NCBI GenBank assembly: GCA_903813345.2
Contig: CAIIXF020000005.1
Location: forward strand, 32,429,375 to 32,493,374
DNA length: 64,000 nucleotides
DNA from: Owenia fusiformis
Lineage: Eukaryota > Annelida > Polychaeta > Sabellida > Oweniidae
Direction: 5' to 3'
Part shown: one piece after another, positions 7,908-63,242 of the stretch
Layout of the letters: each line of letters begins with the position of its first letter
Position numbering within the stretch: the stretch's first letter is position 1
Notes under the pieces: generated by a model
What the model was told of the DNA's origin: nothing
The model's database searches: none
The model's input: only the letters and a program-made list of their open reading frames with translations
Made by a program: the position numbers and the translations under genes

Positions 7908-8399
7908 TTAGTTACAACAAAGGTCAATATGTTTTAGCAGGTTAGCAGCTAAATGTGGTCTATAAGATTTATGGCATTTAGGACACTGCATATCATCGCT
8001 ATCCATGATACTATCCTTACTATAATAGTCATTTCCTGACTTCCGCGTTTTCGTCTCATATCCATTCAAATTGTTCTGGGAGATTTTTGTTGTATAATTA
8101 TTTGACTTTATATAATCATTCCCTGTGATTGGTAAAGAGTCCAGATGGAAATCTCCATTATGAGTGTCATGTACTCCAGAGTCCACCTCATCATAACCTT
8201 CTTCGTCATCATCAGCATCAGTAGCTTCATTTTTGATGTTTGACCCCCTAGTGACGTTACGAGCACGGTCAGCTGTAACATTACGTTGGAGATTCATTGG
8301 TGAGTAGGCGGCTTGATTATTCATCCAGGGTGCTTCGTTGGTGAAGTCTGCATGTCTTGTATAATCCATATTCTGCCCTCCTCTTGCCAACAGTGATGG
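7908..8399 (-). CDS. C-terminal exon: LIR-like motif and UBZ-like zinc finger
   Basis: This exon has 163 codons plus TAA. A low-complexity N/D/S-rich tail holds DDDEEGYDEV at about 8184-8213, an aromatic-x-x-aliphatic core preceded by acids, as in LC3-interacting motifs. The last 25 residues hold Cys642, Cys645, His660 and Cys664 (7917-7985), a CCHC arrangement like the C-terminal fingers of optineurin and TAX1BP1. The protein stops three codons after the last ligand cysteine region. Confidence 0.8.
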   Translation of the reverse strand, partial: PSLLARGGQNMDYTRHADFTNEAPWMNNQAAYSPMNLQRNVTADRARNVTRGSNIKNEATDADDDEEGYDEVDSGVHDTHNGDFHLDSLPITGNDYIKSNNYTTKISQNNLNGYETKTRKSGNDYYSKDSIMDSDDMQCPKCHKSYRPHLAANLLKHIDLCCN

Positions 8400-14300: not shown

Positions 14301-15668
14301 TTTTCCGAGCTATCAGGTCAATATTTGGGTTACATCTTCTTTGACATACCCGTTTTCTTAAAATGTATGGATAAACTATCAATTTCAGCAAAGAGAAGTG
14401 TAAATTCAGTTCAAAGCTTCTATAAAGGGAGTCCCACTTATAGATTTTTTAAGATCCACAACGTTTCAAGAGGAATATCAGCTGAAATGATATTCATTCA
14501 GGGGGTTTCTTTGAAGATAATAAAAATATATGTTAGTCTTGATGAAATATCAAAACTTAAATATATTTTGACACTGGTCGATGATCATTGAATGGCCCCC
14601 TGCACTAATTGTTGCACCTTTAAATTTGGTATCTTCCATGTCATTTAAATGAGTGACTTAGGTAGAAATTTTTCATCAAATTTAAATCATACTTTCAGAA
14701 AAAAGGTTTGTATCAAAATTACACTGGATGGTACAAATTGCAGGCATTTCATTTCAAGTTTCTTCTTTTTATTTCAAGCTAGGATTAGTTAAACTGAAAT
14801 ATTAGTTAAATCCTCAGTCATTTTGGATATACATGTATCAGATACAATACATGAACATGCATAAAAAATTTAAACTGAAATATTAGTTAAATCCTCAGTC
14901 ATTTTGGATATATCAGATACAATACATGAACATGCATAAAAAAATTTAAACTGAAATATTAGTTAAATCCTCAGTCATTTTGGATATATCAGATACAATA
15001 CATAACCATGCATAAAATTTTTAAACTGAAATATTAGTTAAATCCTCAGTCATTTTGGATATATCAGATAAAATACATGAACATACATAAAAACTGATTC
15101 CTCAGCATTTTTGTATTCATATCATATTGGTTGCTAAATGAAGACTCACTGGTTTAACCAATTTATGGATATACTAATTCAGATAAGTTCATTGGTTCAG
15201 CAAAAAGGTAGATATGATGAATCAGTTTCCAATCATTATAATAATATCATTTACCTGGATGTAGCATTCAGTGTCAAATGGATTGCCTCCTTGCTCTAGC
15301 ACAAACTGTCGCAACTCTGCATTTTCTTTTCTAACATCCTTTAGTACTACTGGATTCTGGATATCATCATCGATGAGACTCAATTCAGCACTGTCATTTT
15401 TCCTTGCTAATTTTTCCTTCAGTTTTTCATTTTCCTTAACCAGTTGTGTGTTGAGCTTATCCTTGCTGGATAATTCCTCTTGGGCAGTTTGGTAAAGGTT
15501 GGCAAACTCTTGCAGGGCATTAGCTTTTAGTCGCAAATCCTGATTGGTTTCCTTCAGCTGGGAATTTTCTTGTATGAGGTGACTGTAGGCTATATCTGGG
15601 GGGTAGACATAAGATATGGAACTACTAGCAGAGTCTAACACACTAGAATTATCATCCCTAGTAGCCAT
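7908..15668 (-). CDS. UBAN / zinc-finger coiled-coil adaptor (TNIP/ABIN-optineurin type)
   Basis: Six coding exons (5' to 3'): 15668-15255, 13815-13432, 10812-10498, 9379-9215, 8924-8694 and 8399-7908. All have GT-AG junctions and join in phase to 666 codons plus stop; human TNIP1 is of similar size. The ATG at 15666-15668 sits in AAGATGG context. Most of residues 20-420 is coiled coil rich in E, K, Q and L. Residues 433-442 carry the UBAN signature DFxxERxxRE, which in NEMO, ABIN and optineurin binds Met1/Lys63 ubiquitin chains. Residues ~564-575 are acidic with a YDEV LIR-like core. Residues 642-664 form CxxC-x14-HxxxC, a UBZ-like finger. The UBAN wording (QVxxFxxDFxxERxDRER) is nearest TNIP; the finger is as in optineurin/TAX1BP1. 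Inferred role: cytosolic polyubiquitin adaptor in NF-kB-type signalling or selective autophagy. All introns are phase 0. Confidence 0.88.
8694..8924 (-). CDS. UBAN exon of the coiled-coil adaptor
   Basis: This 77-codon exon encodes residues 427-503. The ubiquitin-binding motif DFESERRDRE lies at 8877-8906 (residues 433-442). All key positions of DFxxERxxRE are present. The preceding exon ends in a heptad-like VEALEHQ, so the motif lies within a continuous helix, as in ABIN, NEMO and optineurin. The remainder (NRLLADFQAG...) continues the coiled coil and then becomes polar. Confidence 0.88.
9060..9177. repeat. ~23-bp tandem repeat beside an exon
   Basis: About five copies of a unit close to TTTATCCACATTGTTGTTTCACA, ending about 37 bp before the donor of the exon at 9215-9379. 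It is intronic. The forward ORF at 8956-9258 runs through it and is not a gene. Confidence 0.8.
9380..10497. other. Intron of the UBAN gene
   Basis: About 1.1 kb of intron between exons 9215-9379 and 10498-10812. No transposon ends, tandem arrays or nested gene recognised. Confidence 0.5.
10813..13431. other. Intron of the UBAN gene with one MITE
   Basis: A 2.6-kb AT-rich intron. It holds a MITE at 13046-13206 with termini CAGGGATCTCTCC and AGAGATCACTG. This belongs to the same family as 26200-26405 and 46651-46845 and shares the internal text TTGCACCCACTT in inverse orientation. Nothing else recognised. Confidence 0.6.
13046..13206 (-). mobile_element. MITE family B (CAGTGATCTCC ends), copy 1
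   Basis: The terminal inverted repeats are related to CAGTGATCTCC/GGAGATCACTG. The internal sequence (GGTCTGAATTGTGAAAATGAGAATTTTGCACCCA) is the reverse complement of the left part of the copies at 26200 and 46651. It is shorter than those copies, so it is internally deleted. Confidence 0.75.
13816..15254. other. First coding intron of the UBAN gene
   Basis: 1.4 kb. The right part is a tandem array (14788-15090). The forward 121-codon ORF at 14226-14591 has no recognisable domain and lies inside the intron on the opposite strand; it is not called as a gene. Confidence 0.5.
14788..15090. repeat. Minisatellite, ~75-83-bp unit, about 4 copies
   Basis: The unit starts TAAACTGAAATATTAGTTAA, continues TCCTCAGTCATTTTGGATAT, then CAGATACAATACATGAACATGCATAAAA. 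Starts lie near 14788, 14871, 14947 and 15021. The first copy has an extra ACATGTAT. It is intronic. Confidence 0.9.
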
Positions 15669-16380
15669 CTTGGATATACTGCTTCCTGCCTACTCTGAAA
15701 TCATCAGAAATCAAACTGAGAAAAACAACCAATGTGCCATCCATTAGAACTTTTTACTCTCTAAAGTGTTTGACCCATGGCCCTATGCTCATACATGTAC
15801 AGTAACAGTGAATCGTAACCATATGTTTGGAAAGGATTACCTTATACAGAAAAACTCTGTCCAAATTACGTGAGTTAGTTACTAAATTTTTAAGTTACTC
15901 AGACTTAGACTTCGATACTTAGTCATTTGAGTATGTTACTCAGTTACTTAAAAACAATTTTCAATCACGAAACCTGCCATTGATTTTATACATGAGAAAG
16001 TGGGCTGATGTATTAAATGATGCAAATATGGCTCTAAAATATGCTCAAAATGTACCGGAGAGGGTCTAAATTTGAAATTATTTCTGAGGATCGGAACATG
16101 TCTCCATACCCCCCTAGCTTGCGGCATTACACACCATCAACGCGGGGTGTCACTGTCAGCGGCCCAACCCATTGGTATGCAAAAGTTGACCACTCTTCAG
16201 AAATCCTTCGTATGGGCCTGGAAGGAGGGGGGTGCACGGATAATATAAGTTCTCCTTATATCCTACAGGATAATCCAGGCTAGGCATCTTGATTCAGAAA
16301 AAACTGGCCTCCGTCCTGAGATGTCGTTATTCACTGACATTACAACTGGCTATAATTTCATAATCAGCACTATCGAGAGC

Positions 16381-43516: not shown

Positions 43517-45108
43517 CATTAACATGACAAAATGTCACCACCTAAAACAATTTGGTCAATTTAAAGCAAGTTGAAAAAATACCTCTTTGACTTTTTTTGA
43601 CATTGAGAAGGTCATTGAAGGTCAAATGTCAAATGTAAAGTCAGATTTGAACTTCTGAGAACATGTAGATGATTTTGAAAAAAAAATTAAGTAAATTTGA
43701 AGCAAGTTGAAAAAAGACCTTTTTGACCTTGAAAAGGTCATTGAAGGTCAAATGTCAAATCTAAAGTCAGATTTGAACTTCTGAGAACATGTAGATGATT
43801 TTGAAAAAAAATTAGTCAATTTGAAGCAAGTTGAAAAAAGACCTTTTTGACCTTGAGAAGGTCATTGAAGGTCAAAGGTCAAATCTAAAGTCAGATTTGA
43901 ACTTCTGAGAACTTGTAAAGTCAAATTTGAACTTCTGAAAAGATGTAAATGATTTTGAAAAAAAAATTTGGTCAATTTGAAGCAAGTTGAAAACAGACCT
44001 TTTTGACCTTTTTTGACCTTGAGAAGGTCATTAAAGGTCAAATGTCAAATCTAAAGTCAGATTTGAATTTCTGAGAACATGTAGATGATTTTGAAAAAAA
44101 AAATTAGTCAATTTGAAGCAAGTTGAAAAAAGACCTTTTTTGACCTTGAGAAGGTCATTGAAGGTCAAATGTCAAATCTAAAGTCAAATCTAAAGTCATA
44201 TTTGAATTTCTGAGAACATGTAGATGATTTTGAAAAAAATTTTAGTCAATTTGAAGCAAGATGAAAAAATACCTTTTTGACCTTTTTTGACATTGAGAAG
44301 GTCATTGAAGGTCAAATGTCAAATCTAAAGTCAGATTTGAATTTCTGAGAACACGTAGCTGATTTTGAAAAAAAAATTTAGTCAATTTGAAGCAAGTTGA
44401 AAAAAGACCTTTTTGACCTTTTTTGACTTTGAGAAGGTCATTGAAGGTCAAATGTCAAATCTTAAGTCAAATCTAAAGTCAGATTTGAATTTCTGAGAAC
44501 ACGTAGATGATTTTGAAAAAATTTTTTAGTCAATTTGAAGCAAGTTGAAAACAGACCTTTTTGACCTTTTTTGACCTTGAGAAGGTCATTGAAGGTCAAA
44601 TGTCAAATCTTAAGTCAGATTTGAATTTCTGAGAACACGTAGATGATTTTGAAAAAGAAATTTAGTCAATTTGAAGCAAGTTGAAAACAGACCTTTTTTG
44701 ACCTTGAGAAGGTCATTGAAGGTCAAATGTCAAATCTAAAGTCAGATTTGAAGGTCAAATGTCAAATCTAAAGTCAAATCTAAAGTCAGATTTGAACTTC
44801 TGAGAACATGTAGATGATTTTGAAAAAAAAATTAGTCAATGTGAAGCAAGTTGAAAAAAGACTTTTTTGACCTTGAGAAGGTCATTGAAGGTCAAATGTC
44901 AAATCTAAAGTCAGATTTGAACTTCTGAGAACATGTAGATGATTTAGAAAAAAATTGAAGTCAGTCTAAACAGTATTTGTTAAGTTATAGGAAGTTGTAA
45001 GAAATTGTTACAGACGCCGGACGCCGGACGCCAGACGCCAACCACCAACCGCCGTCGGAAAAAAACGGAGACCATAACAATATGTCACCACTTTTGGTGG
45101 TGACATAA
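43517..45108. mobile_element. Family D element with expanded internal minisatellite
   Basis: The left end is GGCATTAACATGACAAAATGTCACCACC. The right end is ACGGAGACCATAACAATATGTCACCACTTTTGGTGGTGACATA, preceded by a GACGCCGGACGCCGGACGCC tract. Both ends occur, closer together, at 40857-40998 and 48940-49075. Between them, about 43560-44960 is an array of ~9-10 units of ~110-170 bp containing TTGAAGCAAGTTGAAAAAAG, ACCTTTTTGACCTTGAGAAG, GTCATTGAAGGTCAAATGTC and TTCTGAGAACATGTAGATGA. Short internal duplications vary unit length. Confidence 0.85.
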
Positions 45109-46243: not shown

Positions 46244-49200
46244 TTAGCTCATCATATCTGCATTCGGATTATTACTAGAGTTACTCAATGATTTCAATGA
46301 GTCACTAACGTCTCTACGGAACACTGAAAGATTCTGTGTAAACCTGAAAAACAAGAATTACGCAGATGAGAGATCCTCCAAATATTTATATTTCACTCAT
46401 TCACATGCACGACAGAATCATATGACAGTGGATATGGTAGCTAGTAAGTATATTCTATAGATCTAGTACATTAAAGACTACAATAGAAGACCGCTTTATT
46501 TGAGACACCTCCAGTTCTGGAATACTACTCAAATTCTTGTTGCCCATACTGTATGTAAAATACACCAAGTGGAACACATGAATGGACACAGGTGTTCCAC
46601 GTGCACAGGTTTTACTAACAGGAATACAGCAAGACAATCTAAACATTATGCAGTGATCTCCGAAGACTTTTTCCTCAATCAGGTGCAAAATTTCATTTTC
46701 ACAATTCAGACCAAAATTAGCCAAAATATGCCCATTTTCATGATTTTCAAGTGGGTGCAAATGGATTTTCAAGTGGGTGCAAGCTTCCTTTCAAAATCTC
46801 AGATGGTTGCTGCACCGTCTTGCTTTAATGCTGGGGAGATCACTGTTATGAAAGGTAATCAGACACAAAGCAACATACCGGTCTCTATTCTTGACAAGGA
46901 GAGATCTCTCTATTCCTTCCATGAGACTCTCAAAACACTGGGCCATGGCAGTCTGTTTGTCAGCAGGCTGGCTGCTAATGATGCTTTCACGGAGCTTGTT
47001 GAAGTACTGGAGAACACAATGACATGGTATGTGAGTGTAGTAGGAAGCAGGAATGGAGTAATTTTGAATATAACATAATATGTGAGAGTAATACCAAGCA
47101 TAAAGCAAAAAAATAATGACACTAGCGTTGAACATTAAAATCAAATCAAAAAGTTGTCAAACACATAGAAGTTATGTATGCCTAGTTCTGCCAATAAAAG
47201 CCAACCCTGATCTCTACATATTTCACATCACAATTATACGACTGATGCAAATCATCCCTTAATTCCCAAAACTACTTAGTATTAATGATATTACATAGAC
47301 TATGTGAGTGTGATAAGAATTAGCTAGAAATGAAACCTTAAGTCATAACGTTGTCATGCTAATAAATGGAAGCAGGATATATGGGCCTGTATAGCTCATG
47401 TACAAATGACTACAGTTCAATGGCATTGGTAGGTATGTAATATAAAACAGATACCAAGTTTTTGTCTTTGTTTCACGAGATCGGGGAGAATATCTGATTT
47501 TTTCAATAACAACACTTACATCTTCGTTCAGGAGAATAAGACCTAGAAGTGGGCGGGACATTGACCATTGGTTGCGACAATCTTCAAACATTATGATGTT
47601 CAGGACTGTGGACAACATCTGCAAGACAAGAGAAATGGCACTTTATCTAAATGTTATATGGTGATTCAATTCAGCTGACTCAACACATCCCTGATTGCTA
47701 TCACTGTACTGCATTAGAATCATGGTCAATATAAAACATTCAAGTTACATTGACCTAAAGTGGTTATCATATTCTAGTATAACTGTGTGTGTTACTTAAT
47801 CATTTGCTCATACTGGAAAGGTCATTGATGTGCCTGAAAAGGCTATTTGAGTTAAAAAGGATGATTTTTGAAAAAAATAGTATTACATTATAACAACAAT
47901 AAAGTATGATGTAAATCTTTGCAACAGAATTGTGAAAAGGCACAAGAAAAAACATTGTACCTGTTGCAATATATCTGGATGGAGTTCTAAAATACGTAGG
48001 AATGCTTCGCTGTCTTGTGTTGATGTGCTGTGAGATTTCTTCTGTTTTTTGGTTAATCGTTTAAACAGGTATGTGATTATATTGTCTAGTGTAGCACAAC
48101 AACCCGTACACACCATGGTATCTGAAAGGAAAAAGACAACTTCATAAGTAATCTTTTTAACACAATTTTAACCAATCTTTATTACGCAATCTTAATCTTA
48201 TGTGATTATATTAGCTAGTGTAGCGCAGCAACCTGTACAGTGATAATCTTTGTCACAAATGCTAAACAATCTTCGTCACACAATCTTAATGAATATTTGT
48301 CACATAATCAATTTTAATCAATCTTCATCTCACAATTCTAACCAATATTTGTCACGCAATCGCAATCTTAACCAATATTTGTCACAAAATCAGTTTTAAC
48401 CAATCTTTGTCACACAATGTTAACCAATCTTTAAGCACGTTAACAATGAAATATTGTCATGAAATAAATTAAAGGCAACTGTACCTAGTGCTGTGAGGCC
48501 CTCAGATATTGTGGTAAGGATGTAGAGGAACACTCTTGGTTCCAGGTTACTAATGAATGTCATGTGGTCCTGGGCCAAAATCTCTAGGAGACCATAGTAG
48601 GCTTGACTTAGTTTTGGATAATCCTAAAACACATTGGGGTAGATGGTAATAATTTGCAATATGGGTACTAAGGGATCAATTGTCAAGTGAAATTAACATA
48701 ATAGGTATAAAGATGGTAAAGGGTTCTGATAAAATATATAGCCCATTCAATTGATCATATTTTTGGCATGCAAAATCAAAGTACCTCTACAAGTTTTCCT
48801 ACTGAAAAGTCAACAAAGCAAGTAAATAAAGCCATGGTGTGAGACCATGAAATTGCATTTCTTCTCAGCCATGTTTCTAGTTAAACACAGAAGGTGATGA
48901 GTATCAGAATGGTATGAAGTATTGTAAATCAACATTTTACAAGGCATTAATATGCAAATTGTCACACCTGCCATCTGCCAGACACAAACTACCAACCGCC
49001 ACATACCGAACACTGTCCACAAAAAAGTTGGAGACTGTAACAATATGTCACCACTTTCACTTTTGTGATGACAAATAAACTGTATAACTTACCAATAGAT
49101 CACTGTGTGGTATAGAGAGCAGTAGTTTCACAAATGTTTGAAGTGCATTACTGAGGGCATCATCCCCATAGAGTCTGAAGACACCAAAGTTGACATAATT

Positions 49201-52200
49201 CCCACATAAAGCTGCCTTCAGCATGGAAAAGCATATAGAGACACCTTTTAATCTGGTAGAGTTAAGGTAAATGTGTATTATTATCACTGTCTCACATGAG
49301 TTGAATTTCAACAGAGTGGAATCAATTATCTGTATAGAAATAAACAAATCTAGTGATTACCATATTTGAGCCATGAATGCCAAATGAGTTTTTTTTCATT
49401 TGTATGATAGAAAACTCCTTCAATTAATCCAATATCTTTTCAGAAACTTAACAAATTGATTTAAGCCTCTTCCCTTCCCAAAAACACACCACCTTTAATT
49501 TTCATTTAATCTAAAATGTTTAAAATAACTGTGTGAAGCAGATTTCATATTTTCTAAAGGATACTTCATTGCATATATTTGATCTTTTGGTATTTGTTCC
49601 CCTAGTGTCAGCAGGCGGGTACCTGAAACAAAATCAAGCAATATTCATAACATCTCAACAGAGAGGGTTCACAATCTAATTGAAAAGGTAGTATCACCTG
49701 AGTATGCAATTTACAAAAATATACGATGTAAAATATGATTCACCCACAAAGTAATAACAAGCTAAAAATATGACATGATTTAAAGTAGAACTAGTTCAGA
49801 AGATTGAATGTGCCACAAAAGTCATACAAAGTTCACATTATGCAAGATCCTAACTCCAAATTAAATACAAACTACAGGGTGACACAAAATGCCACCATTT
49901 AACATTAAGATGAACCTTTTTAAGTGTAGCTATAGACTGAGTTTTCGATATGTGAAACAGTGGTATACATAATATACAATATCAACTGTTAACAAAGAAC
50001 GAAATTCTGCACTAAAGGCTGATGTGAAATTTCAATCACTCTATTCTGATTTTAACACACTTTTAGTTTATAACTAAAACAGATTACTAATAGGGGAGAA
50101 AAATGAGTTTACCATAACTGACAATTATTTTGCTGATTTCTCTGAAGAGTAGGATGCCATTTGGGGAAGAAACATCAAACTGTAACCGCTGGGACCTAAA
50201 ACATATAAAGAGAAAATGAACTGTTATATAGTGGAACTACAACTGATTATTTGAATATTTTTCTACATATAGTAAAAGAGTGCACCAGAGATGATGCAGG
50301 TATACTATACATATGTATGTATGAATGGGTGATTTAGAGACAAGGATTCATTTTCAAAAAAGGAATAATATGTATGTTCTTATGTTCTTGTGTCTTGTGT
50401 TTATAAATCTCAAGATATGGTTTAAGACATATGAAGCAATTGACCCACCTGTTCTGTGCAAGTTCAGCCATCAACTTTAGTATTGGAGTGGTGACTGAAG
50501 GCTCATGGTACCACACCTCCACTGCTCGGAGCAGGACTGGTGTGTATGCTGGGTAGACCCAGTCAAATAACATCATGTAACTGGTCTTTGTGTTGAAGGC
50601 AAATGCAACTCCCCTCAGATCACGTGCAAGACCAATAAGAGATCGCTGAAAGATATTTCAATTATAAATTAATTTAAAACGTAGGATCCTGTGCTAAGAG
50701 CTGAAGTGAAAAAGTCACTCAACCATGGCACCTTTTTACATTCATTTTAATCATTCAGAAAAGTTTGTGCAACAGAAATATTTTCTGGACAAGCTATTGG
50801 AAGGAGGGCTTCACTATTACGATTTATAAATATTTTAACCAGAACAACGGCAACGCCAAAGCGTAGCGAATCCCATCGAACAGAAATGGCTGGCATTTTT
50901 ACAAACGAAGCGCAAATATCATAAAACAACACACCAGAAAGGCCACCATTTTCAAAATGGTAGCTCACTAGCCAAGTTGTCATCAGAAGAAATAATATGC
51001 TTTTAAGTAGCCACCTCTAAAATTTTTGAAAAATCGCACACATGCTTGTAAAATAACACACATAAAAATGGTGGCCATTTTTCAAAATGGCCGACTACTC
51101 CCTAAAGTTTTATTAGACAATGTGCCATGCTTAAAGTATTCACATATCAATTATGAACAAAATCGCTCCACTACTTTTCAGGTTATAGTAAAATACGTTA
51201 AAATGGCGGCCATTTTTCAAAATTGTTTTCAAAATGGCCGCCTTCTACCAAAAGTGTCATAGGACAGTGTGCCATGCTTATAGTATTCACATACCAAATA
51301 TGAACAAAATCGCTCCACTACTTTTCGAGTTATAGTAAAATACGTTAAAATGGCGGCCATTTTGAAAAATGGCCACCTTCTACCAAAAGTGTCTTTAGAC
51401 AGTGTGCAATGCTTATAGTATCCACATACCAAATATGAACAAAATCGCTCCACTACTTTTTGAGTTACAGCAAAAATCGTAAAATGACGAGTAAAGGCCG
51501 CCATTTTTCAAGATGGCTGCCATGTGCTTCTTTAATATCTACATTTGTAGCATTATTAACGTCCTTTATAATTTTTTTACATTTAAAACATATTGCTATT
51601 ACAGTTTACATATTGCACCTAAATTACTGTAAAATCGTCACTAAAATGGCCGCCATTTTGAAATGAGCAGCCATTTTGAAAATCGGCTTTCGAGCAGAAC
51701 TTCTAACCCCATAGGGTATATGTGTACAAAATATGAACAAAATCTGGCCAACCGTATTTGAGTTATTGCCCGGACGGACGGACGGACAGACGGACGGACG
51801 TACGTAGACGTACGTACGGATGGACGGATGGACGGACGGACGGACGGAGGCGTTCCCTATATCCCTCCGAACTTCGTTCGATGGGATAATTAACACTTAT
51901 TTGCAACCACAATAGCAGCTCTGTAGGTGCAAAACATCATGTCTTCAACACATCGGTCTTCAACTGTTTAAAGTCACAATCAAAATATATTCAGTTTTTG
52001 TTCAAATAAGGTCAGATTGCTTCCAAACACTGACCAAAACCACTCTCTTAATCATAAGGAAAAATTCAATAACATAAGAAAATGTCACCACCTAGCTGCA
52101 ATAAAAAGTAACAAGTAAGTGTAACCATTTGTTAGAGATTCTGATACCAGTCATAAAAACTTGTGAATAATTGAACAGTAGCTCACATCACAACGAAAGA

Positions 52201-55200
52201 GGATAAATTACTAAGAGAGTGTTTGATATTGGTGATCTTAAGCAAAAGCATATGTTGGGAGATTAAAACTTCCTTAATCAGAATCTTACAGGACATAAAA
52301 CATGGACTAAAGCCTAAATAAATTGTTAAACATTAAAAATTCCCTACCTTTGCTTCCTCAGCTCTGAATAATGATGAGTTGGCATTGCTTATCAAATTAC
52401 CCACAGCATCAAATGCAGCTAATAATGAAAAAATTGGTTTGTTATTACTTAACAAGGAATCACTGTGTCAAAATGTAACTGTCACATTTGATCTATGGCA
52501 ACTGTACAGTGGCTGTAGCTTCCCAAAATTGAGAGAAATATGCAGCATAAAATATAGGAATACGTAGTACAATGTAGATTTTCTATATTGATTTTTTGAA
52601 GCTATGGCCACAGGAGAGCAAATGTAACTGAAGCTTTACTGGGACATCATGAACTGTTCAAACTCGAGATTTGACTTACTAGTGAGGGGCATCATAAACT
52701 GTTCAAACTTCTCTTCATCCTCCCCTAGGTCCACCATGAGCAATCTGCCCAGGGCTGTATAGAAGGTGGTCCTACAGCGCATGTCATTCACCTGGTTCTC
52801 TGTACTGTTTGTAATACCCAAGAATGGGAAGTGTTCACTCTGCAATACAAACAAATCTTCATGCAACCGATTCATTTCAATTGATCATGAACTTACTTTA
52901 GAATTAATGAACAGTGTGATTGCAGAGCAAGAGCTTATTTATTGTGATTGTTGAGCATGAACTTATTTTGATTTTCTGAATGTTAAGCATGAACTCTCAT
53001 ACTATGTGATTGCTGAGCAAGAGCTTATTTATTGTGATTGTTGAGCATGAACTTATTTTGATTTTCTGACTGTTAAGCATGAACTCTCGAACTATGTGAT
53101 TGCTGAGCAAGAGCTTATTTATTGTGATTGTTGAGCATGAACTTATTTTGATTTTGCGAATGTAAAGCATGAACTTACTGTGTGATTGCTGAGCATGAAC
53201 TTATTTTGTGGTTAAACATGAACTCACTGTGTGATTGTTGAGCATGAACTTATTTTGTGGTTTAATATGAACTCACTGTGTGATTGCTGAGCATGAACTC
53301 ATTTTGTGGTTTAATATGAACTCACTGTGTGATTGCTGAGCATGAACTTATTTTGTGGTTTAACATGAACTTACTGTGTGATTGCTGAGCATGAACTTAT
53401 TTTGTGGTTTAACATGAACTTACTGTGTGATTATTGAGCATGAACTTATTTTGTGGTTTAATATGAACTCACTGTGTGATTGCTGAGCATGAAGTCATTT
53501 TGTGGTTTAATATGAACTCACTGTGTGATTGCTGAGCATGAACTCATTTTGTGGTTTAATATGAACTCACTGTGTGATTGCTGAGCATGAACTTATTTTG
53601 TGGTTTAATATGAACTCACTGTGTGATTGCTGAGCATGAACTCATTTTGTGGTTAAACATGCACTTACTGTGTGATTATTGAGCATGAACTGTACAGCAT
53701 CCAGTTTGACAAGTTTCCTAACACTGCTGTAGCCAACACTGAGGTCACTGAGGAGCTGCAAAGTTTTTGTGATGATCTGTTCACTTCTACCCCAGTACTT
53801 CAAGTTGGTTATTCTGTAAGATAAACATGTACACATGCAAGGTATTGTATTTTTGTTTACTATTACCCCAGTAGGATAAACATGTACACATGCAAGGTAT
53901 TGTATTTTGGTTTACTATTACCCCAGTACTTCAAGTTGGTTATTCTGTAAGATAAACATGTAGTATTTTGTATCAAATTGGTTTACAATTACCCTAGTAC
54001 TTCAAGTTGGTTATTCTGTTAAATAAACATGTACACATGCAAGGCTATTTTGTATCAAATTGGTTTACTATTACCCCAGTACTTCAAGTTGGTTATTCTG
54101 TTAGATAAACATGTACACATGCAAGGCTATTTTGTATCAAATTGGTTTACTATTACCCCAGTACTTCAAGTTGGTTATACTGTAAGATAAACATGTACAT
54201 GTGCAAGGCTATTTTGTTTCAAATTGGTTTACTATTACCCCAGTACTTCAAGTTGGTTATTCTGTAAGATAAACATGTACATGTGCAAGGCTATTTTGTA
54301 TCAAATTGGTTTACTATTACCCCAGTACTTCAAGTTGGTTATTCTGTAAGATAAACATGTACATGTGCAAGGCTATTTTATTTCAAATTGGTTTACTAAT
54401 CAGACTTTACTGAGAAACGATAAGGTCCCAAAATGTACTACATATTTTATTCAAGTTTTCAACTTACATTTTTCCTATGAATACCCTAAGCACCATTGCC
54501 TCGTCATTTAGCCCCAATACTTCTGATAGTCTTCTATATACCTACACAGTAAAATACAACAAAAAGTATAATCATCTAAAATACCAAACATAAGAATAGT
54601 GTAAACAATTATTCCAATAAATTTACCAGAAATAACTAGCAGCTAGTAACTTTAAATAGTAAACTGAAATCTCAATTAAATTGCATTCTGAAGATGTGCT
54701 TGTCTCAGAAGCTTGAAATGTTTAACCTAATAATCCGTATAAGGTAAAATATTTCCTAACACATGGAATATTGTGCAAAAATGTGGCCATGAAGATTAAA
54801 CAATCTGAGCAAGATTCAAAAGACATGGAATTATTCTACCAAAAAGTAACCTTACATATATATTTGCTTTTTGCATAAAACAACTTTGCCAGGTGAAATC
54901 AGACACATAATTGCATCCAGGACTAAGCTGAAAATATGCCCCAGCATATGTGGTTGTGAAATAAAAAAAAACCTTACTTTTGAAGTTTTTTGCACTTGAT
55001 CCCCTACATATATTTTTCTAAATTGTTCAAAGAAACTAAGCATTGCCAGTTCCAACTTTGCACACCCAGCCTGGGCCAGTCTACTGTCTGTCAGGTTCAT
55101 CAATTGCAACACCCTAAAATGAATATGCACTTGTTACTAGTGAAGTTCTCATTTGAAAAAATAAAATAAATCACTTATGATCTTAAGACATTTTTAACAA

Positions 55201-58200
55201 AGAATTTAAGTCTAGGTTTCTTGTAAAAATATCAAATCGTTAAATTGAACTCTACAAGATATGTACTCAAAAACAAATGTATAAGAATGGTACTACAGTG
55301 TATTTAGTTGGTGCACTTAGTGCGTCAAGACAAGACAAAAGGAGCAGCTGAGACAAATGGTATAAGTCAGCATGTACCCCATGAAATGGAGACAAAGGGC
55401 AATTTAATTTGTCCAATAATTTGTCCAAAAATCGATCCCACAGTTCATCACATGAGCCAATATTATTCATAAGCAGAAAAAAAGGATGTCATATGGTTTT
55501 ACCTGCAGACTAACTCCCCATCCATTGCATCATGTTCATCTGTACTGGCAAATGATACACGGCCTCCTATCACAGCACCTAAAACAACAGTCAATCATTG
55601 TACTCAAATCTTTTTGCTGAAGAAATTTAAAACAACACTTGATGTATGAATAGCTAGAAAATAGCACCTGGCAACTCCCCAGTGAAAAACTCAATGCCTG
55701 GCTTTTGTACATATAATGTATACTATAGACTAGACACGTACCTATTATATAGACTAACCAGGTTAGTCTGCCCTCTTGTACACCTACTACCCCATTTTTG
55801 TACATATAATGTATACTATAGACTAGGCACGTACCTATTATATAGACTAACCAGGTTAGTCTGCCCTCTTGTACACCTATTACCCCACTGGCTGCAGAGC
55901 TGGCCACTAGTTCCTGATATCTTTGAGCTGCCTCATCAAACAGCTGAACAACCAAAGCGCAGGTTTTCTCATATTCACATCGACCTATGGTAGACAGCTG
56001 AAAGTAAGCAATCAAATTACATGTATATGAATTCATGTTAAACAGACTTTTTAGGAGGTTATTGTAGATATGTTTTATATGACACAATACTAATTTAGTA
56101 AGAGTAAATAGCAAGCATTTAACAAGGCCAAATGTCACCACCTACCATTTGCTACTAACACTGAACTCTGAACGCTGGATGTCAAACACCAAACTCAGTT
56201 CACCAAAATGAATAGATCTTTAATCTGTTTATGTTTTTATATAATATGGAATGAACACATGTAAATTGTTATGATAATTCAGAAATAAAACTGAGAATGC
56301 CTGTATAGTGTTAAGTATACCTACCTGTTCTAATTGTTGTGATATCATTCCTTGGTCATCTAGTGGATCTTCAAGACTGTCCCTGAAACATTTAAGAAAC
56401 ACCAATTGCACTTAGTGTTCTTTTATTACATGGGGATAATAAGGGAACCAAAGTCTGCCTTCGCATTGTTAATCCTTAAGTTGAATGGAGAAAAAGTTTT
56501 CAATAAGATTTCTTCAGCACAACACATTTCTTCAGCACAACACAATTTGAAGTGTGAAATACATTTACATGTCACTACTACCAATCTATCCTGAACAAGT
56601 CTTTCTACTAATAGACTAATGTGTGGACTTGTTTCATTGTTTACAGTGTATATCAAATCAAATTCAATTTAATCCATGTTAAAATATATTCACTGTTCTA
56701 ATTAACTAAGTGAGAGCATACCTCAAGACCACGGCGACAGAATCCAACCGTGATGTAATATATGCTTTAGTGACCTCTGGAGTGAAAGTCTCAAGTAGAT
56801 GGGGTTCGGAGGCCTTGACGTAAGGAACTGATGCCACCATTCTCTGCCAAAGACTTAATAGGTAGTGGACACTATTTGGAGCAAACTGCCACATCTAAAA
56901 TGAATATGCACTTGTCATTAGTGAAGTTCTCATTGAAAAAATAAAATAAATCAATTATGATCTTAAGACATTTTTCACAAAGAATTTAAGTCTAGGTTTC
57001 TTGTAAAAATATCAAATCGTTAGATTGAACACTACGAGATATGTAATACCATTGCCTTAAAAGTATAATACAATAGTGGGAAACAGAAGGCAAAATTTCA
57101 ATGACACTGTTTTATAATGGCTAGCACTTCAATTTTGAAGGCCCAATTTAGAACATTAAAAATACAATGATTTGGCCTACAACTAAAACATTTCTCGATG
57201 ACTTAACTATAGTGACCTACCTGTAGGCTGGTGACAGTGAACTCTACTATGCGTTTGATGACTTAACTATAGTGACCTACCTGTAGGCTGGTGACAGTGA
57301 ACTCTGCTATGTGTTTGATGACTTCGCTGTAGTTGTCCACCTTCACAAGTTCCCCCAGCTGATAGTTTGACTTCAGACGTGCAAGGAGTCGGCAGAATTC
57401 ATGGTAATTATTTGGCTCTGATAGACCCTAAAATCAGATGTTAAGTTAACAAGTCAAATGCACTTATACAGGGCTGCTAAATTTCCCATTCAAAATTCCC
57501 ACACTTTTGCCTGATTCAAGTGTGGAACTCCCTAACCAAATGTCCTGTTTTTATCATTTTGTCAAAGAATTGAGTTTAAGAGACATTTTATATGTTCACT
57601 GCCTGAATGTACATGTTTTCATTCAGTTTTTTCTCATTTAATTTATCTTCTTGGTTTGTGGTTGGTCTAATCTTCAAATTTTTATGATGAGTTGATGGTG
57701 TCAACATTTCAAAAGAAAGACTTTTTCTTTCAAAGGTAAGTGTTAAAGCTACACTACACATCAGTGAACTCTATTATATTCATATTGTCATTTGAAAGAG
57801 AAGTTTTAAGTGGTAAAAAATGCTGCATGAATAACTATTTACCTGTGGGTTTTCAAGTATCACCTTCACCCCTGTGACCAACTGGTTGAGGAATCTGGCA
57901 CGCTGGGAATTATCAAAGAGAGATCTTCGAACAGATGCTATCTGAACGAGACATGCCAAAGCCTGAAAGATGATATGCAATTTAGCACTGAGAAAAAATG
58001 ATACATACAGTACTAATAATATAACTGACATATTGTTAAAGCTGAGATGAAGAGTAACTTTTTCAAAGATGTGTGTCTTTTCTCATGTCATATCAAAATC
58101 TCTAATTCTATTTGTATTATGTACAATATATTAAATAGGCTGAAAATAAAATTGATGATAAGAAAATTTCTTAGGGAAACAACTTGGAAACAAAATTACT

Positions 58201-61200
58201 AAAGAGTCGGTGAACCAGTCTCAGAATAAATATGAATTCCCACACAAATCAAATGTTACATTGCACACACTGAGTGCATGTCGTGCAAATGAATAAGGAT
58301 TGTCTTTAACACTCGAATCTATTTTGGATGTATTTTATATTATGTATTGCAGAGGATGGTTAACTTACCATAGAAGACAAGGATGGAGGCAGATGAGAAT
58401 AGAGATCAAAGAAAAGTTCTACTGTGCTGCCATCAAGGAATGCTGAAATATATCAACAAGAACATTTTACCTCAGTCACATTTTCATAAACCATGAACAC
58501 TTTAGTTTGTCTATTCATTTGTCCAGGCCACCTCACAAAACATTAAATCTAGGTCACTCAACAGCACACATATATGGCTGGAGTTCAAGAAAAAAGGTTG
58601 CCACATGTTACAGCTTAATGAAATATTCAAAATTGAAGTCACAGAATGTCCAGGTTTTGTTTCTAGGATACCATCGACCATCAATGTGTGAAAATCATAT
58701 GCCACAGCCAGCCTATACTTCCTAACAGATTTACTATGATAATGAGCCTACCTCCCCTCCAATTTGTAGGTATCTGTACTGTACAGAGATCATCAGATGA
58801 TTCATCTGTAGATGTACCAATGAAGTCAAATGTCAGACAGTTCTGGGCCATTTGTAATGTATGGTTCAGTAAACCATGCTAAAAACAAACATTTCTAATG
58901 AATGGTTGAATAATCTATGTTGTCATGAACTACTGCATTTAATAAACACAACCTGCAAATCTCCCCTTTGAAATACAAGTTGGGACAAAAAATGTTACCC
59001 ATTCTGAACTGGCAAAAATATCATAAGGTTAACACCTGTATATTGGCAAATTTAATCTTCTCAGTAATTATTATGCATTGATAAAGTCAAGTTTTTTTAT
59101 TCAACATAGAAGAAAATACTAATTACCTGTGATTCATTATTAAAGTCTAGATTCTTTATATTCTCAGCGGCCTGTTTGAGGAGGGTGCAGCCTAATTGGA
59201 AGATCTCATATAATTGACTGTCACGAAAACTTGAAGCAATCTTGCGGTGTTTAGTTAAAGATCTGCTCACCTCTGCCTATTAATGAAAATCAATTACAAA
59301 TTATTTTTATTCGCTGAAACTAAAATCCAATTCATTAAAATACGCTTTTTTGTATTTTTGAGCAAAACTAACAACTCACACATAATGCTTATGTGTTTTT
59401 ATGATCAAATAATAGACAGTGTTTCTTTAAATCAATGACCATGTTTTGCTTATTCTTTTATTAATCATGCATGGAGCAGTTGCTATTATAATAATTCTTT
59501 TTCATAGGGATCCATGTCATTCTATCTTTCTTAGTATTTGTTATCATTTATACTGTACTGATATTTGAGCCTATTATACCAAAGATATCGCTAAATTCTA
59601 TAGTTTATATGTAGAAGTATGGCACTTAGGAGATTATTTTTGTAAGTTCAGTAGATTGTCTTTGTTGACCTTTGTTGGTTTAAGATTTACACGAGTTGAT
59701 ATAATCACACAAAATGCAGGAAAAACGGTGGCATATCAACTTCCACTTAGCTCGAGACAATAAGTAACAAGTGAACGCACATACAGAACTCACAAACCAA
59801 GCTTTAAACTGTTTTAATGCATACATTTGATTTGCTTGCTTAATGTGATGCAAGCCCAAGGAAATCAGAATATGAACATTCTATATGATTTATGGTACCA
59901 TGCTTTATTTTGCTTTTGCTTGTTACTATTTTACCAACCAGACATGCTTATTTAATAATTTTGTTAGGTTTACATCTTTGCACAAGTGTTTTATTAATGC
60001 AGGATTACACCCTATTTCTCCTCTTGATTGAAACTTATATGAGTGAATAAGGTGAATTGATGGACATTTAACACAAAATTATATTTGCATAAAAATGACT
60101 ACTTGGTATCCACCCCCATTAAACACACCAGTCACCGCATGAGTCCAACACCAACTAGTGTCAGTATATTGAAGAAACAGTTGATCAACAAGTGTTCTCT
60201 TAAAACACATGACTACTTGTAAATTCAGTTTGTTTTAGTAATGGTAAATCTTTCACAAATAAACAGAATCTAGACTCACCTTGTATCCCTAAATAACACA
60301 AACAAATACATTACATAAATAAAATAAAAAGTAAAACAAGTTTCCTCATTGAAAGTTGGCTTAGGGATAAGACAGCCTTTCTAACTAAGACAGAAATAAA
60401 AAATAGAGAATGCCCATGAATTGTTGATTATTAATTTGAAAACAATAAACATGAATAATGGCACCACACAATGGGTTCATATATCAAGTATATGGTAACA
60501 AGGAATCATACATTACTTGCAGAATATACTATGTGTAGTTTTATACGTAAAACTCTTAATGGATTCAAAGACTAATAAGTGAGAGATTTCATAGGCTTTA
60601 CGTGGAAGCTTAAATTAGAAAACACCATTCACCATTTATTGAAAACCCTCAAATAAACACAAAATTATAAAAAATTGGCAGTAGATACATCTAATAGAGA
60701 AAGAGATAAGATAGCTCACAGGTCCCAAGCACCACTGTATCCAAGCCCATACTAAGCGTCTTGAATCAAAAGAGGAAATGATAATAATTTCAAAAATAGC
60801 TTGAAGCGTAGAACACGCATTAGGGGAAGGAGTCATATATAGAGATAGAACCCCCTTTCAGTTTAAGCTTTTATTAAACAAGGCAACTGTAAAACATGTG
60901 TTCTATTACTTTTGATATTTCAAATGAATGTCAACCAACAAGACCACATTAAATTAAACCCAAAAATTTGAAAAATATAGGAAGAACTGAGGTTAACGTA
61001 TGTAAGGGCCTGGCGCCTAATTTTGATCCCCTTAAATGTAAAAGTGATAGACTTGGCCCCTGTGAGATGTAGAGTAGAAAAAGGATGAGGAAACCTGTGC
61101 ATACCTCACTGACCTGATTCACTTCACACACTAACTGTGAAAGAAGCTGCACTCCTACCATTACATGTTGGGTAGATCCACTCTGAAATATTCAACAAAA

Positions 61201-63242
61201 AATAGCTTACTCATCACGTTCTATATGGAGCAAGCACTTTAAAATTTCTGAGCATAACCTAGGTGAAAATCATTTTTGCATTTTGTATGTTACAAGGAGT
61301 TTCATTAGCAGCAGGCAACATGCAATTTTCACTGGTTGTTTTCACAGAATCGCTTGTTGTTTTCCAGGACTTTTCAACTTTTCCATGTTAAATTTATGAT
61401 TTCCATTAATTTTGCCCGTTGTTTTCATTTATTTAGCCTGTTGTGAGAAATTCTAGTGAAACCCCTGTATAACCCAAATTTTTATGTAATAATCTACATC
61501 TACCTTATTTTATCCATTCCATATTAATTTTTACCTCCTGATGAATAATGGCATATAATTTATACGGATAAATTCATATTAAAAAAATCACAGTCACCGG
61601 TCATCTTGTTATCCAAAATCATATTTACCAAGTAATCCTCATTATTTTGAAACTTATTTCAAATAAGGCTTTTACACCTGATCATACTGATTGTTTGTAT
61701 GTTATCCCATATTCAATCCCTTCAAGTTACGCCTGATATTGCATATCTTAAATCAAAATGTTCCCGTATTTCTTGGCTTTTCTTTTTAACCAGTGAGTAA
61801 TTAATTGGAGAGAATATCAGATATCAACAGGAACTAGACTGCAATTATCTATCAAAACAGTTGAAATGCTAGAACATTTTGAGTGTACATATAGTTACAT
61901 TTATCATAAATTGGATTGATACGTACCTGCAAAAACTTGCCTACATCTGTAGTTACATTCCTAAAGACATATTCATCTTTACTGACATCAAACCAGCCAA
62001 GCTTTACCAGGCGTCCAAATAACTGTAACAAACATAAACCCTTTAGCATGGATGTATATACAATGATAGAACCTACAGAATATTGATGGGACACTTTTCA
62101 CTATTATTAAAAGTTTTGTCATCTTTTGTTTAACACATTAATATTCTTTGCAGCAACACATTGAGGATTCTTACTTAAAAAAGGGCAACTCTGTGGAATA
62201 GCAAATGCCCAAAAATATGTGAATACAAATCAATATGGGCTAATTCAAAAAATTTCTAGTTCTTAGTTGTGGACATTTTGTATTACAGGTAAGTCAAGTC
62301 ATCCTCTTAGAATATAAACTGCTACCTACCTGTACTAATGCTTGTGTAACAAAGTTGGCCAACTTGGGTCTCGTAGCAAGGTAATTCAAAACATAATTCC
62401 CTGAAATGAGGAATAATGAAAGCTAGAGGACAACAGTGCATGTGCATAGCTTGGGGCTATATATATATGACAATATTACAAAAAAATCTTAATTTTACAT
62501 TTTGATCAAAATTTCTCAATATTTTTTACCAGAGTTGTTCGCAGAGTGGCACGCAAATTTTGAATTATTAAATATGCATGTATAAAAATATATCAATGAA
62601 TGGTTAAGTATATACTAACGTATATCAAGCCTCTGGTCCAAGGGAAGGACAATATTGGGTCTGGAGATCAGTTTAGTCAGAGTGGTTGCAGCAAGTAACT
62701 GTGCATAAGGTGACTGAAACATACAGATATAATCATAAAGTAATATGTTCTTATTTTTTAAAACATCATGCTATGTATTTCATGAAAGAAACAATGCAAA
62801 TATGAAGATAATTCTTGATGTTTCATTTGCATAAAATAAAAGCACACTTTAATCAGCTTGAAATATTGGCATTAGGCCTGCCATGTCTAATTTGACATCT
62901 AGTACAGATCTGAAAGGCAGTATGATGCTTGTGATTTTATAATATAAAATTCATTCATTTTGTGACTATTTGTGGCCAGAGCATAAATGAAAGGTGCTAT
63001 AATGCAAATGAATATGATACTTTATTAGAATGTAACCAAAATTGAGTGGTTTAAATGAAGCTAGCATGCTACTTGGACCAATCTTATTGACTCACATTGC
63101 CTCGCTCCAAAAGTAGTTGACATTTGTTGAGACAGTCAGGAGAATTAGAGAAGTTGACAAGTGCCTTTTCTGCCTCTGATCGCAAGTCTTTGTCCACAGT
63201 CTCGTACAGTTGCTTACACAGAAGCTCTAACTGCTGAAGCTC
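46244..63242 (-). CDS. XPO7: Exportin-7 (RanBP16), N-terminal start outside the window
   Basis: Exons 5' to 3': 63242-63096, 62713-62620, 62400-62330, 62022-61927, 61182-61105, (60288-60280), 59276-59127, 58878-58752, 58442-58369, 57962-57843, 57427-57281, 56894-56722, 56382-56325, 55997-55835, 55578-55503, 55113-54978, 54541-54468, 53813-53669, 52839-52680, 52418-52348, 50645-50449, 50195-50113, 49622-49565, 49252-49093, 48623-48485, 48121-47961, 47618-47520, 47006-46879, 46343-46244. All phases join, giving 1097 codons (1094 without the 9-nt exon) plus TAA; human XPO7 is 1087. Near-identical blocks include [45 protein letters not shown]-type text and the C-terminal DMMS. XPO7 is a HEAT-repeat karyopherin-beta that exports cargo with RanGTP through the nuclear pore. 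Only about the first 8 residues are missing, in an exon beyond 64000. Confidence 0.95.
46246..46343 (-). CDS. XPO7: Terminal coding exon of XPO7
   Basis: Short exon (stop at 46244-46246). It completes a split Arg codon (CG|G) and encodes [17 protein letters not shown]..., ending NADMMS, matching the conserved C terminus of animal exportin-7. Its reading frame is too short to stand out by length; it was found by searching for the expected tail. Confidence 0.92.
46651..46845 (+). mobile_element. MITE family B (CAGTGATCTCC ends), copy 3, in the last XPO7 intron
   Basis: Begins CAGTGATCTCCGAAGACTTT and ends GCTGGGGAGATCACTG. It shows clean TIRs and shares nearly all blocks with 26200-26405. It ends 33 bp from the donor of exon 46879-47006, so it fills much of the last intron. 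Confidence 0.85.
48168..48434. repeat. ~25-bp degenerate array plus a copied exon fragment
   Basis: Repeats of the type TAACCAATCTTTGTCACACAATC run from about 48168 to 48434 in the intron upstream of exon 47961-48121. Inside, 48200-48240 (TATGTGATTATATTAGCTAG...) matches 36 of 41 bases of exon positions 48070-48110, coding for the segment around [10 protein letters not shown]. Confidence 0.75.
48940..49075. mobile_element. Family D element, short copy in an XPO7 intron
   Basis: Left part ACAAGGCATTAATATGCAAATTGTCACACC; right part AAAAGTTGGAGACTGTAACAATATGTCACCACTTTC. It lies less than 20 bp from the donor of exon 49093-49252. It is diverged and lacks the internal array. Confidence 0.7.
50855..51895. 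mobile_element. Dispersed element with AAAATGGCGGCC units and a GGACG tail
   Basis: The left part carries GCGTAGCGAATCCCATCGAA, and the right end TTCGTTCGATGGGATAATTA, so ATCCCATCGAA is inverted at the two ends. Between them are three ~135-bp direct copies (51067-51486) with AAAATGGCGGCCATTTTTCA and ACAAAATCGCTCCACTACTT, then a GGACGGACGG/ACGTACGTACGG tract at 51771-51850. Elements of this style are common in lophotrochozoan genomes as far as I know; no transposase is present. ORFs rich in RPSV/PSVR come from the GGACG tract. Confidence 0.75.
52068..52110. mobile_element. Family D end fragment
   Basis: AATAACATAAGAAAATGTCACCACCTAGC matches the left end of 43517-45108. No right end was found nearby. 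Confidence 0.5.
52900..53668. repeat. Minisatellite made of the 3' end and donor of the adjacent XPO7 exon
   Basis: From 53170 to 53668 there are about ten ~49-bp units. On the minus strand each reads TTCATGCTCAGCAATCACAC, A|GTGAGTTCATATTAAACCAC, AAAATGAG. The first half is a near copy of the last 22 nt of exon 53669-53813 (TTCATGCTCAATAATCACACA) and its donor. From about 52915 to 53170 there are about three larger ~97-bp composite units of the same material. Confidence 0.9.
53669..53813 (-). CDS. XPO7: XPO7 exon flanked on both sides by arrays of its own ends
   Basis: 145 nt encoding the block from [11 protein letters not shown] to [10 protein letters not shown], highly conserved in exportin-7. 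Acceptor CTTACAG|AATAACC and donor CACACA|GTAAGT. It is intact and in phase with both neighbours (54468-54541 and 52680-52839). The authentic donor is GTAAGT, whereas most decoy copies read GTGAGT. Confidence 0.93.
53835..54400. repeat. Minisatellite made of the acceptor and 5' end of the adjacent XPO7 exon
   Basis: About six ~82-bp units plus a partial one. On the minus strand each reads ...CATGTTTATCTTACAG|AATAACCAACTTGAAGTACTGGGG then TAATAGTAAACCAATTTGAT. The part after the bar repeats the first 24 nt of exon 53669-53813. Copies of CAAGTTGGTTATTCTG lie near 53930, 54002, 54085, 54167, 54249 and 54331. Confidence 0.92.
55114..55265. repeat. Intron segment shared with 56895-57045 (copy 1)
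   Basis: Starting exactly at the acceptor (plus-strand CTAAAATGAATATGCACTTG), about 152 bp match 56895-57045 at over 90%, through TTAAGTCTAGGTTTCTTGTA to GATATGTA. The flanking exons are unrelated, so homology begins at the exon boundary. Confidence 0.92.
55708..55893. repeat. 93-bp tandem duplication of an XPO7 exon end and donor
   Basis: Units 55708-55800 and 55801-55893 differ at only a few positions before the right-hand edge. Each carries the exon text for [15 protein letters not shown], the donor (ATAATAG|GTACGTG) and about 34 bp of intron. The unit is 31 codons and the frame stays open through both copies. Confidence 0.93.
56118..56220. mobile_element. Family D fragment
   Basis: AACAAGGCCAAATGTCACCACCTACC, then CTGAACGCTGGATGTCAAAC. 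It matches the left end of family D; decayed and without a clear right end. Intronic. Confidence 0.5.
56895..57045. repeat. Intron segment shared with 55114-55265 (copy 2)
   Basis: This is the 3' end of the intron upstream of exon 56722-56894 on the minus strand. It is the same ~150-bp sequence as at 55114-55265 and also ends exactly at the acceptor AG. Confidence 0.92.
57197..57316. repeat. 60-bp tandem duplication of an XPO7 exon end and donor
   Basis: Copies 57197-57256 and 57257-57316 are identical except for two bases. Each has GTTCACTGTCACCAGCCTACAG|GTAGGT on the minus strand. The upstream donor (exon edge 57281) gives the conserved protein. Reading through to the second donor meets TAA within seven codons. 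Confidence 0.93.
60280..60288 (-). CDS. XPO7: Candidate 9-nt XPO7 microexon
   Basis: On the minus strand TTGTGTTATTTAG|GGATACAAG|GTGAGTCTAG gives a good acceptor and an excellent donor around nine bases (Gly-Tyr-Lys). It lies between exons 61105-61182 and 59127-59276, both phase 0 at this junction, so inclusion is frame-neutral. The junction falls in a variable loop (after VNQVSE, before SRSLTKHRK). It is probably alternatively spliced. Confidence 0.6.
63096..63242 (-). CDS. XPO7: First visible XPO7 coding exon
   Basis: 49 codons from [15 protein letters not shown] to QLLLERGN, the start of the importin-beta N-terminal (Ran-binding) HEAT repeats. Human XPO7 has about eight residues before this point, so the initiator Met must be in an exon to the right of the window. 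Confidence 0.93.

Follow-up and report, generated by a model that had tools for sequence, protein, structure and literature searches.

The term 'mirage' was given to tandem repeats lying across an exon-intron boundary in the lancelet gene Adh3; such repeats were also described in the lancelet globin genes BflGb6 and BflGb9 (PMC3087553), with troponin C and PGBD5 as further examples (PMC3902484). Both boundaries are affected, units range from 10 to 160 bp, one haplotype has 6 units and another 3, and RT-PCR suggests regular splicing (PMC3087553). Lancelet mirages share units composed of an exon end, a splice site and a piece of intron; they lie at either boundary, carry decoy AG or GT dinucleotides in many units and occur in several unrelated genes. 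Mirages have been proposed as a source of new introns (PMC3087553), and intron gain through tandem duplication of AG|GT sites has been described (Rogers 1989; Gao and Lynch 2009, as cited in PMC3087553). A literature search, judged by title and opening of the abstract among papers mostly outside subscription journals, returned no mirage report outside the lancelets.

Exon 17 of the XPO7 (exportin 7) gene of Owenia fusiformis is flanked by two arrays whose structure is a further example of this known kind. The novel aspect is that mirages are common in the sampled parts of the Owenia genome and can be counted. The DNA analysed (the window) is a stretch of 64,000 nt with a GC content of 34%, located on contig C5 of the host assembly (G000; 498 Mb in 525 contigs). 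XPO7 exons were located by tblastn with human XPO7 protein as query, followed by a junction search. Each of the 27 introns located in the window has GT-AG ends; the joined exons, read from 63242 to 46247, form an open frame with no internal stops; the single '*' in the translation falls in an assumed 5' extension, ahead of the acceptor of the first given exon. As that exon begins at an acceptor, the true gene start lies further upstream. The features around exon 17 are as follows.

46247 to 63242, minus strand: XPO7 (exportin 7), 28 coding exons in the window (tblastn and junction search)
53669 to 53813, minus strand: XPO7 exon 17, 145 nt, flanked by both arrays (tblastn and junction search)
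53816 to 54398, minus strand: acceptor-side mirage of exon 17, 82-bp units (TRF; local alignment score 27.5)
52915 to 53691, minus strand: donor-side mirage of exon 17, 49-bp and then 90/28-bp units (TRF; score 23.0)

Exon 17 has an acceptor of phase 2 and a donor of phase 0, shares 85% identity with human XPO7 residues 597 to 644 and gives one match only across the genome. It separates intron 16 (654 nt) from intron 17 (829 nt).

The upstream array fills 583 nt of the 654-nt intron 16, with a period of 82 and one 55-bp part (TRF). Its 82-bp unit comprises a polypyrimidine-like tract, an ACAG acceptor and a copy of exon 17 nt 1 to 35. A sequence-only reading of this locus had taken the units to be the acceptor plus the first 24 nt of the exon; the acceptor and exon start were borne out, but the copy extends to approximately 35 nt, mismatches included. 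Exactly six decoy acceptors retain an intact ACAG, in keeping with the 'about six' of that reading, and their first exonic nucleotides lie at 54343, 54261, 54179, 54097, 54015 and 53944. One further unit, near 53872, is without an intact ACAG acceptor. Splice sites were scored with matrices built from 87 junctions of four genes of the Owenia fusiformis genome, with the two exon 17 junctions excluded. The true acceptor scored 6.34, and the decoys ranged from 2.28 to 6.56 (6.34, 6.34, 6.25, 2.47 and 2.28, with 6.56 for the nearest). Since some decoys match the true acceptor in score, local strength alone is unable to choose the site. As had been anticipated, use of a decoy acceptor would read the exon start and then a stop, after 14 codons for four copies, 7 for one and 27 for the nearest.

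Intron 16 also holds, within 53816-54398, 10 donor-like sites (15.3 per kb), the highest density in XPO7. Seven of the 10 are GTAAT and lie approximately 23 nt past a decoy acceptor or its remnant, such that the upstream units look like 23-nt micro-exons. These GTAAT sites are weak, scoring 4.67 to 6.76.

On the other side of the exon, the downstream array covers 754 nt within the 829-nt intron 17, with a period of 49 followed by a degenerate 90/28-bp part (TRF). Each unit copies the last 23 nt of exon 17 together with its donor, very nearly the 'last ~22 nt plus donor' that had been read from the sequence. The periods of ~82 and ~49 bp were likewise both recovered by TRF, although a period of approximately 26 bp inside the donor array indicates that the 49-bp unit is itself a dimer. 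The differing periods and units fit the earlier claim that the two arrays arose separately. The array contains 10 decoy donors of the form CACA|GT, where 'ten or more' had been counted: three carry GTAAGT, as does the true donor, and seven carry GTGAGT. The three score 5.81, equal to the true donor (5.81), and the seven score 3.64, under the 5th percentile for real donors. Outside the clear unit copies, a GT at 52896 scores 8.68 as a donor. The frame, continued beyond the true donor, ends at a stop after 8 codons, inside the limit of about ten given previously; this stop precedes the first decoy donor, and every decoy donor of exon 17 therefore takes it in. Mis-splicing at exon 17 would thus be predicted to be null, a claim of the sequence-only reading with which the premature stop at every decoy is consistent.

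Alignment confirmed that the units match the exon ends. Exon 17 scored 27.5 against its upstream and 23.0 against its downstream facing intron; first-order Markov resampling (60 per side) gave maxima of 12 and 13, and the highest score against non-adjacent XPO7 introns was 11.5. The likeness of the units to the ends of exon 17 thus exceeds chance.

The sequence-only reading was confined to exon 17 and did not use the name 'mirage'; absent from it was the recurrence of such copies at XPO7 exons 7, 10, 13, 18 and 25 and in other genes. An exon-edge copy was counted where an exon scored at least 15 against the intron that it faces. By this measure, 7 of 54 XPO7 exon sides carry one: exon 7 upstream, 10 downstream, 13 downstream, 17 upstream, 17 downstream, 18 downstream and 25 upstream. 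The downstream side of exon 6, with a score of 13, fell under the threshold and was left out of the count. The copies outside exon 17 are listed here.

57197 to 57324, minus strand: donor-side mirage of exon 10, 60-bp unit in 2.1 copies (TRF and alignment)
55703 to 55887, minus strand: donor-side mirage of exon 13, 93-bp unit in 2 copies, stop-free and in frame over 31 codons (TRF and alignment)
52641 to 52664, minus strand: single decayed copy of the end of exon 18 in intron 18 (score 19.0, exon nt 130-154 of 160)
58890 to 58919, minus strand: single decayed copy of the start of exon 7 in intron 6 (score 15.0, exon nt 0-30)
48199 to 48239, minus strand: single decayed copy of the start of exon 25 in the repeat-rich intron 24 (score 28.5, exon nt 11-52)

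At exon 10, the 8-bp sequence AAGTCATC occurs three times: where the first copy begins within the exon, where the second copy begins, and once more behind the second copy. Its presence at both borders and at the junction is the pattern expected of a duplication between short direct repeats; such microhomology at unit borders was noticed at exon 10 only. Because the exon 13 unit is stop-free and preserves the frame, splicing from its second donor would lengthen the coding sequence by 31 codons and could yield a longer XPO7 isoform.

Recurrence was quantified in five genes annotated in full or nearly so (XPO7, XPO1, CSE1L, POLR2B and CLTC). Copies scoring at least 15 against the facing intron were found at 11 of 226 exon sides; nine of these start exactly at the facing edge, and two begin further in, 6 and 11 nt from it. 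Controls gave 0/236 at this threshold for exons against random non-adjacent introns and 1/226 for the reverse complement. XPO1 contributes two edge arrays and CLTC one (70 bp, 9 copies). POLR2B has two by TRF, one of which reaches the score threshold, and none was found in CSE1L. Two further RPB2-like genes, annotated in part, hold three more.

Another sample was drawn from Pfam adaptin and myosin-head matches picked blind to repeats, comprising the 112 of 135 listed matches that lie inside 30 loci. Here, 9 of 224 sides scored at least 15, compared to 1/224 for the reverse complement, and 7/224 were kept after inspection. The match at L012 was dropped as it reads as an alternative exon of muscle myosin, and the downstream match at L005 because its array begins in the intron and contains no exon. 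L015 was kept, with a unit that copies only the last 4 exon bases; as some survey segments extend past the exon into the intron, its score derives mainly from intron sequence. The largest arrays copy an exon end and its donor, with 151-bp units in 22.9 copies (99% identical) at L003 and 82-bp units in 33.9 copies (98% identical) at L004. Other survey arrays measure 260 bp x 4.2, 119 bp x 3 and 61 bp x 4.5. At exons unmarked by Pfam, arrays were found at L016 (83 bp x 7 on a donor side; 91 bp x 11.8 on an acceptor side), L022 (41 bp x 4) and L025 (125 bp x 9). Additional edge arrays outside the survey measure 133 bp x 7.9, 31 bp x 21 and 29 bp x 4.3.

Arrays thus recur at both types of exon edge and in several genes, and nearly all of the decoys examined lead to a premature stop. 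In 8 of the 11 donor arrays examined, a stop lies ahead of the first decoy donor; the three that read through are XPO7 exon 13 (in frame) and those of L015 and XPO1 (frame shift). Six acceptor arrays beyond exon 17 (two at L016, one at L029, two in POLR2B and one in a gene on C11), whose decoys were found by exact strings, lead to a stop from every decoy, as do both decoy acceptors at L005. An exact-string search of the XPO1 acceptor array gave no decoy.

These loci have the character of lancelet mirages. Units span the exon-intron boundary on both sides of exon 17 and downstream of exons 10 and 13, donor and acceptor edges are both affected in XPO7 and elsewhere, and splice dinucleotides persist in many repeats (6 decoy acceptors and 10 decoy donors at exon 17). 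Units of 82 and 49 bp, and others of 29 to 151 bp, fall within the approximate 10 to 160 bp range, which one unit of 260 bp exceeds. Unlike the lancelet cases as described in the passages cited above, both edges of one exon are affected in XPO7, arrays reach approximately 34 units (compared with lancelet genes other than Adh3), and a rate can be counted (11/226 exon sides). Splicing and length polymorphism are reported for the lancelet mirages; those of Owenia were analysed in one genome sequence. The reported hosts of mirages are lancelets; the large contigs and low GC content seen here do not fit Branchiostoma. Searches for the GFP and mollusc hemocyanin families gave no match, nor did their controls; those for COX1 and hemerythrin were likewise empty, although prokaryote controls gave matches. 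With the AG|GT model of intron gain, as cited, the Owenia arrays share tandem duplication that copies splice signals; they differ from it in that they lengthen introns already present and leave the exon as it was, no new intron having been found here.

We infer that the arrays are very probably mirages: chance tandem duplications across an exon-intron boundary that subsequently expanded and were tolerated as close to neutral. A duplication by slippage or unequal exchange, of units that here measure 29 to 260 bp (at one locus, direct repeats of 8 bp can be seen to bound it), would happen to span the boundary, and expansion would follow as in any minisatellite. The content and position of the units accord with the seeding at exon ends that the sequence-only reading had proposed. 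Surplus copies would survive on the intron side only, as an exon-side copy would alter the protein, and the true acceptor and donor would consequently remain the innermost pair. If the spliceosome pairs the sites nearest across the exon, the outer decoys would be skipped and the arrays would be close to neutral. Preference for such sites is the expectation of exon definition (PMC9225289), and that work predicts that, of several tandem sites, the innermost pair is used, as proposed here; it draws on alternative sites from a database and on plasmids, whereas the Owenia arrays offer natural, near-identical sites.

Correct splicing of exon 17 is assumed from its coding conservation, which likewise suggests that selection preserves one exact exon. 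If the conserved protein is made, position and not local strength must decide the choice of site, given that some exon 17 decoys are as strong as the true acceptor and others elsewhere are near-perfect copies. The loci therefore represent natural duplicated-splice-site experiments, with many near-identical donors or acceptors and one correct choice, and RNA reads on them would gauge the fidelity of innermost-pair choice as decoys multiply. The arrays also reveal one route of intron lengthening, and a proposed source of new introns, at a measurable rate.

Several observations sit less easily with a simple neutral picture. The seven weak GTGAGT donors (3.64, versus 5.81 for the true donor) could reflect selection, and the decoy of exon 13 keeps the reading frame and brings in no stop. 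Introns 16 and 17 may originally have been short, in which case pairing across the intron would favour the decoys. Pure neutrality would moreover predict random placement of arrays, against which the suggestive excess at exon edges described below (9 of 20, versus 4.7 expected) counts. The interpretation given in the sequence-only reading is, as a whole, partly supported.

Introns are short in the five genes (median 350 nt over 113 introns, 17% being under 250 nt), and a randomly falling tandem duplication would therefore often span an exon edge. It is conceivable, though we consider it doubtful, that exon edges act as genuine hot spots of tandem duplication beyond such passive hitting, for example through the step in GC content between exon and intron (43% versus 32%), a nucleosome edge or transcription. 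Arrays of period at least 25 were each placed at random on the collapsed genes. Across the five genes, 9 of 20 arrays lie at edges (4.7 expected, P 0.019), rising to 9 of 15 (3.1 expected, P 0.0005) when arrays also present in other loci are left out, an exclusion chosen after the first result was known. Omission of XPO7 gives 5 of 14 for all arrays (3.0 expected, P 0.14) and 5 of 10 under the same post hoc exclusion (1.8 expected, P 0.014). For the first four genes the figures are 8 of 14 (4.2 expected, P 0.023), or 4 of 8 without XPO7 (2.5 expected, P 0.19). CLTC, for which more than half of the arrays had been predicted beforehand to lie at edges, fell short of that prediction with 1 of 6 (0.5 expected, P 0.43).

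A further 34 loci yielded 35 arrays with a period of at least 25, 5 of them dispersed; 13 of the other 30 were classed as edge arrays by eye, on incomplete exon annotation and without a P value. Copy numbers are also higher in edge arrays, with a median of 4.5 (n=22) against 2.6 (n=23; P 0.009), the classes here again being partly assigned by eye. Against a hot spot, windows in XPO7 scoring at least 13 showed no clear edge excess (6/54 at edges versus 159/952 in interiors, or 52/835 for interiors without introns 16 and 17), and conservation of the exon copy keeps edge copies detectable for longer. An approximately two-fold excess of arrays at exon edges is hence possible and not yet established. 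In its broadest form, the proposal would make exon edges the preferred birthplaces of minisatellites, at some 4-5% of exon sides; mirage formation would then be a general process still under way in a second lineage of animals, where introns grow through it and innermost-pair splicing shields the coding sequence from up to ~33 near-identical decoys at one exon. We advance this tentatively, as less probable than not.

The sequence-only reading had also entertained a regulatory splice-site cluster, whereby decoys would buffer or adjust the inclusion of exon 17 or route transcripts into nonsense-mediated decay. Several decoy acceptors do equal the true one, all exon 17 decoys give stops, donor-like sites are denser in intron 16 (15.3 per kb) than anywhere else in XPO7 and the exon 13 mirage would add 31 in-frame codons. 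However, the same structures appear at unrelated exons of unrelated genes, at both edges and with arbitrary, unrelated unit lengths, frames and copy numbers, leaving regulation with little support and, in our judgement, very improbable. Less likely still is false expansion at exon ends during assembly. Arrays of up to 99% identity are hard to assemble, and one amphioxus mirage appears mis-assembled in the draft (PMC3087553), but the Owenia units are set apart by substitutions and indels, some copies are single and decayed, and the arrays have unique flanks at many independent loci in contigs of tens of megabases (11 large ones, C1 and C3-C12, of 32-62 Mb). Duplicated, mutually exclusive exons, which the muscle myosin match at L012 resembles, are the least credible explanation and were rejected for exon 17 as whole alternative exons, where units hold one edge only, copying approximately 23 to 35 of 145 nt and one splice site of two.

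Some minor observations were also made. On contig C9 (37986009-37994334 of G000), twelve consecutive matches, all to one part of the myosin head near residues 18-84, form a large cluster of tandem, probably mutually exclusive exons of a myosin heavy chain; this cluster was among the matches outside the 30 loci and so was left out of the survey. L012 holds a further likely alternative myosin exon. Within the window, positions 51079-51486 belong to a family of dispersed repeats that internally carry tandem units of 135-147 bp and AAAATGGCGGC-type motifs; the family is also present in the distant loci L014, L031, L033, L037, L039 and L041. Positions 43544-44921 show nested periods of 12, 30, 124, 136 and 274 bp around GACCTTGAGAAGGTCA, with similar sequence in L010. 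Finally, open frames at 7911-15689 on the minus strand look like a multi-exon gene encoding a long coiled coil and a zinc-finger-like CPKCHKSY...H...C end.
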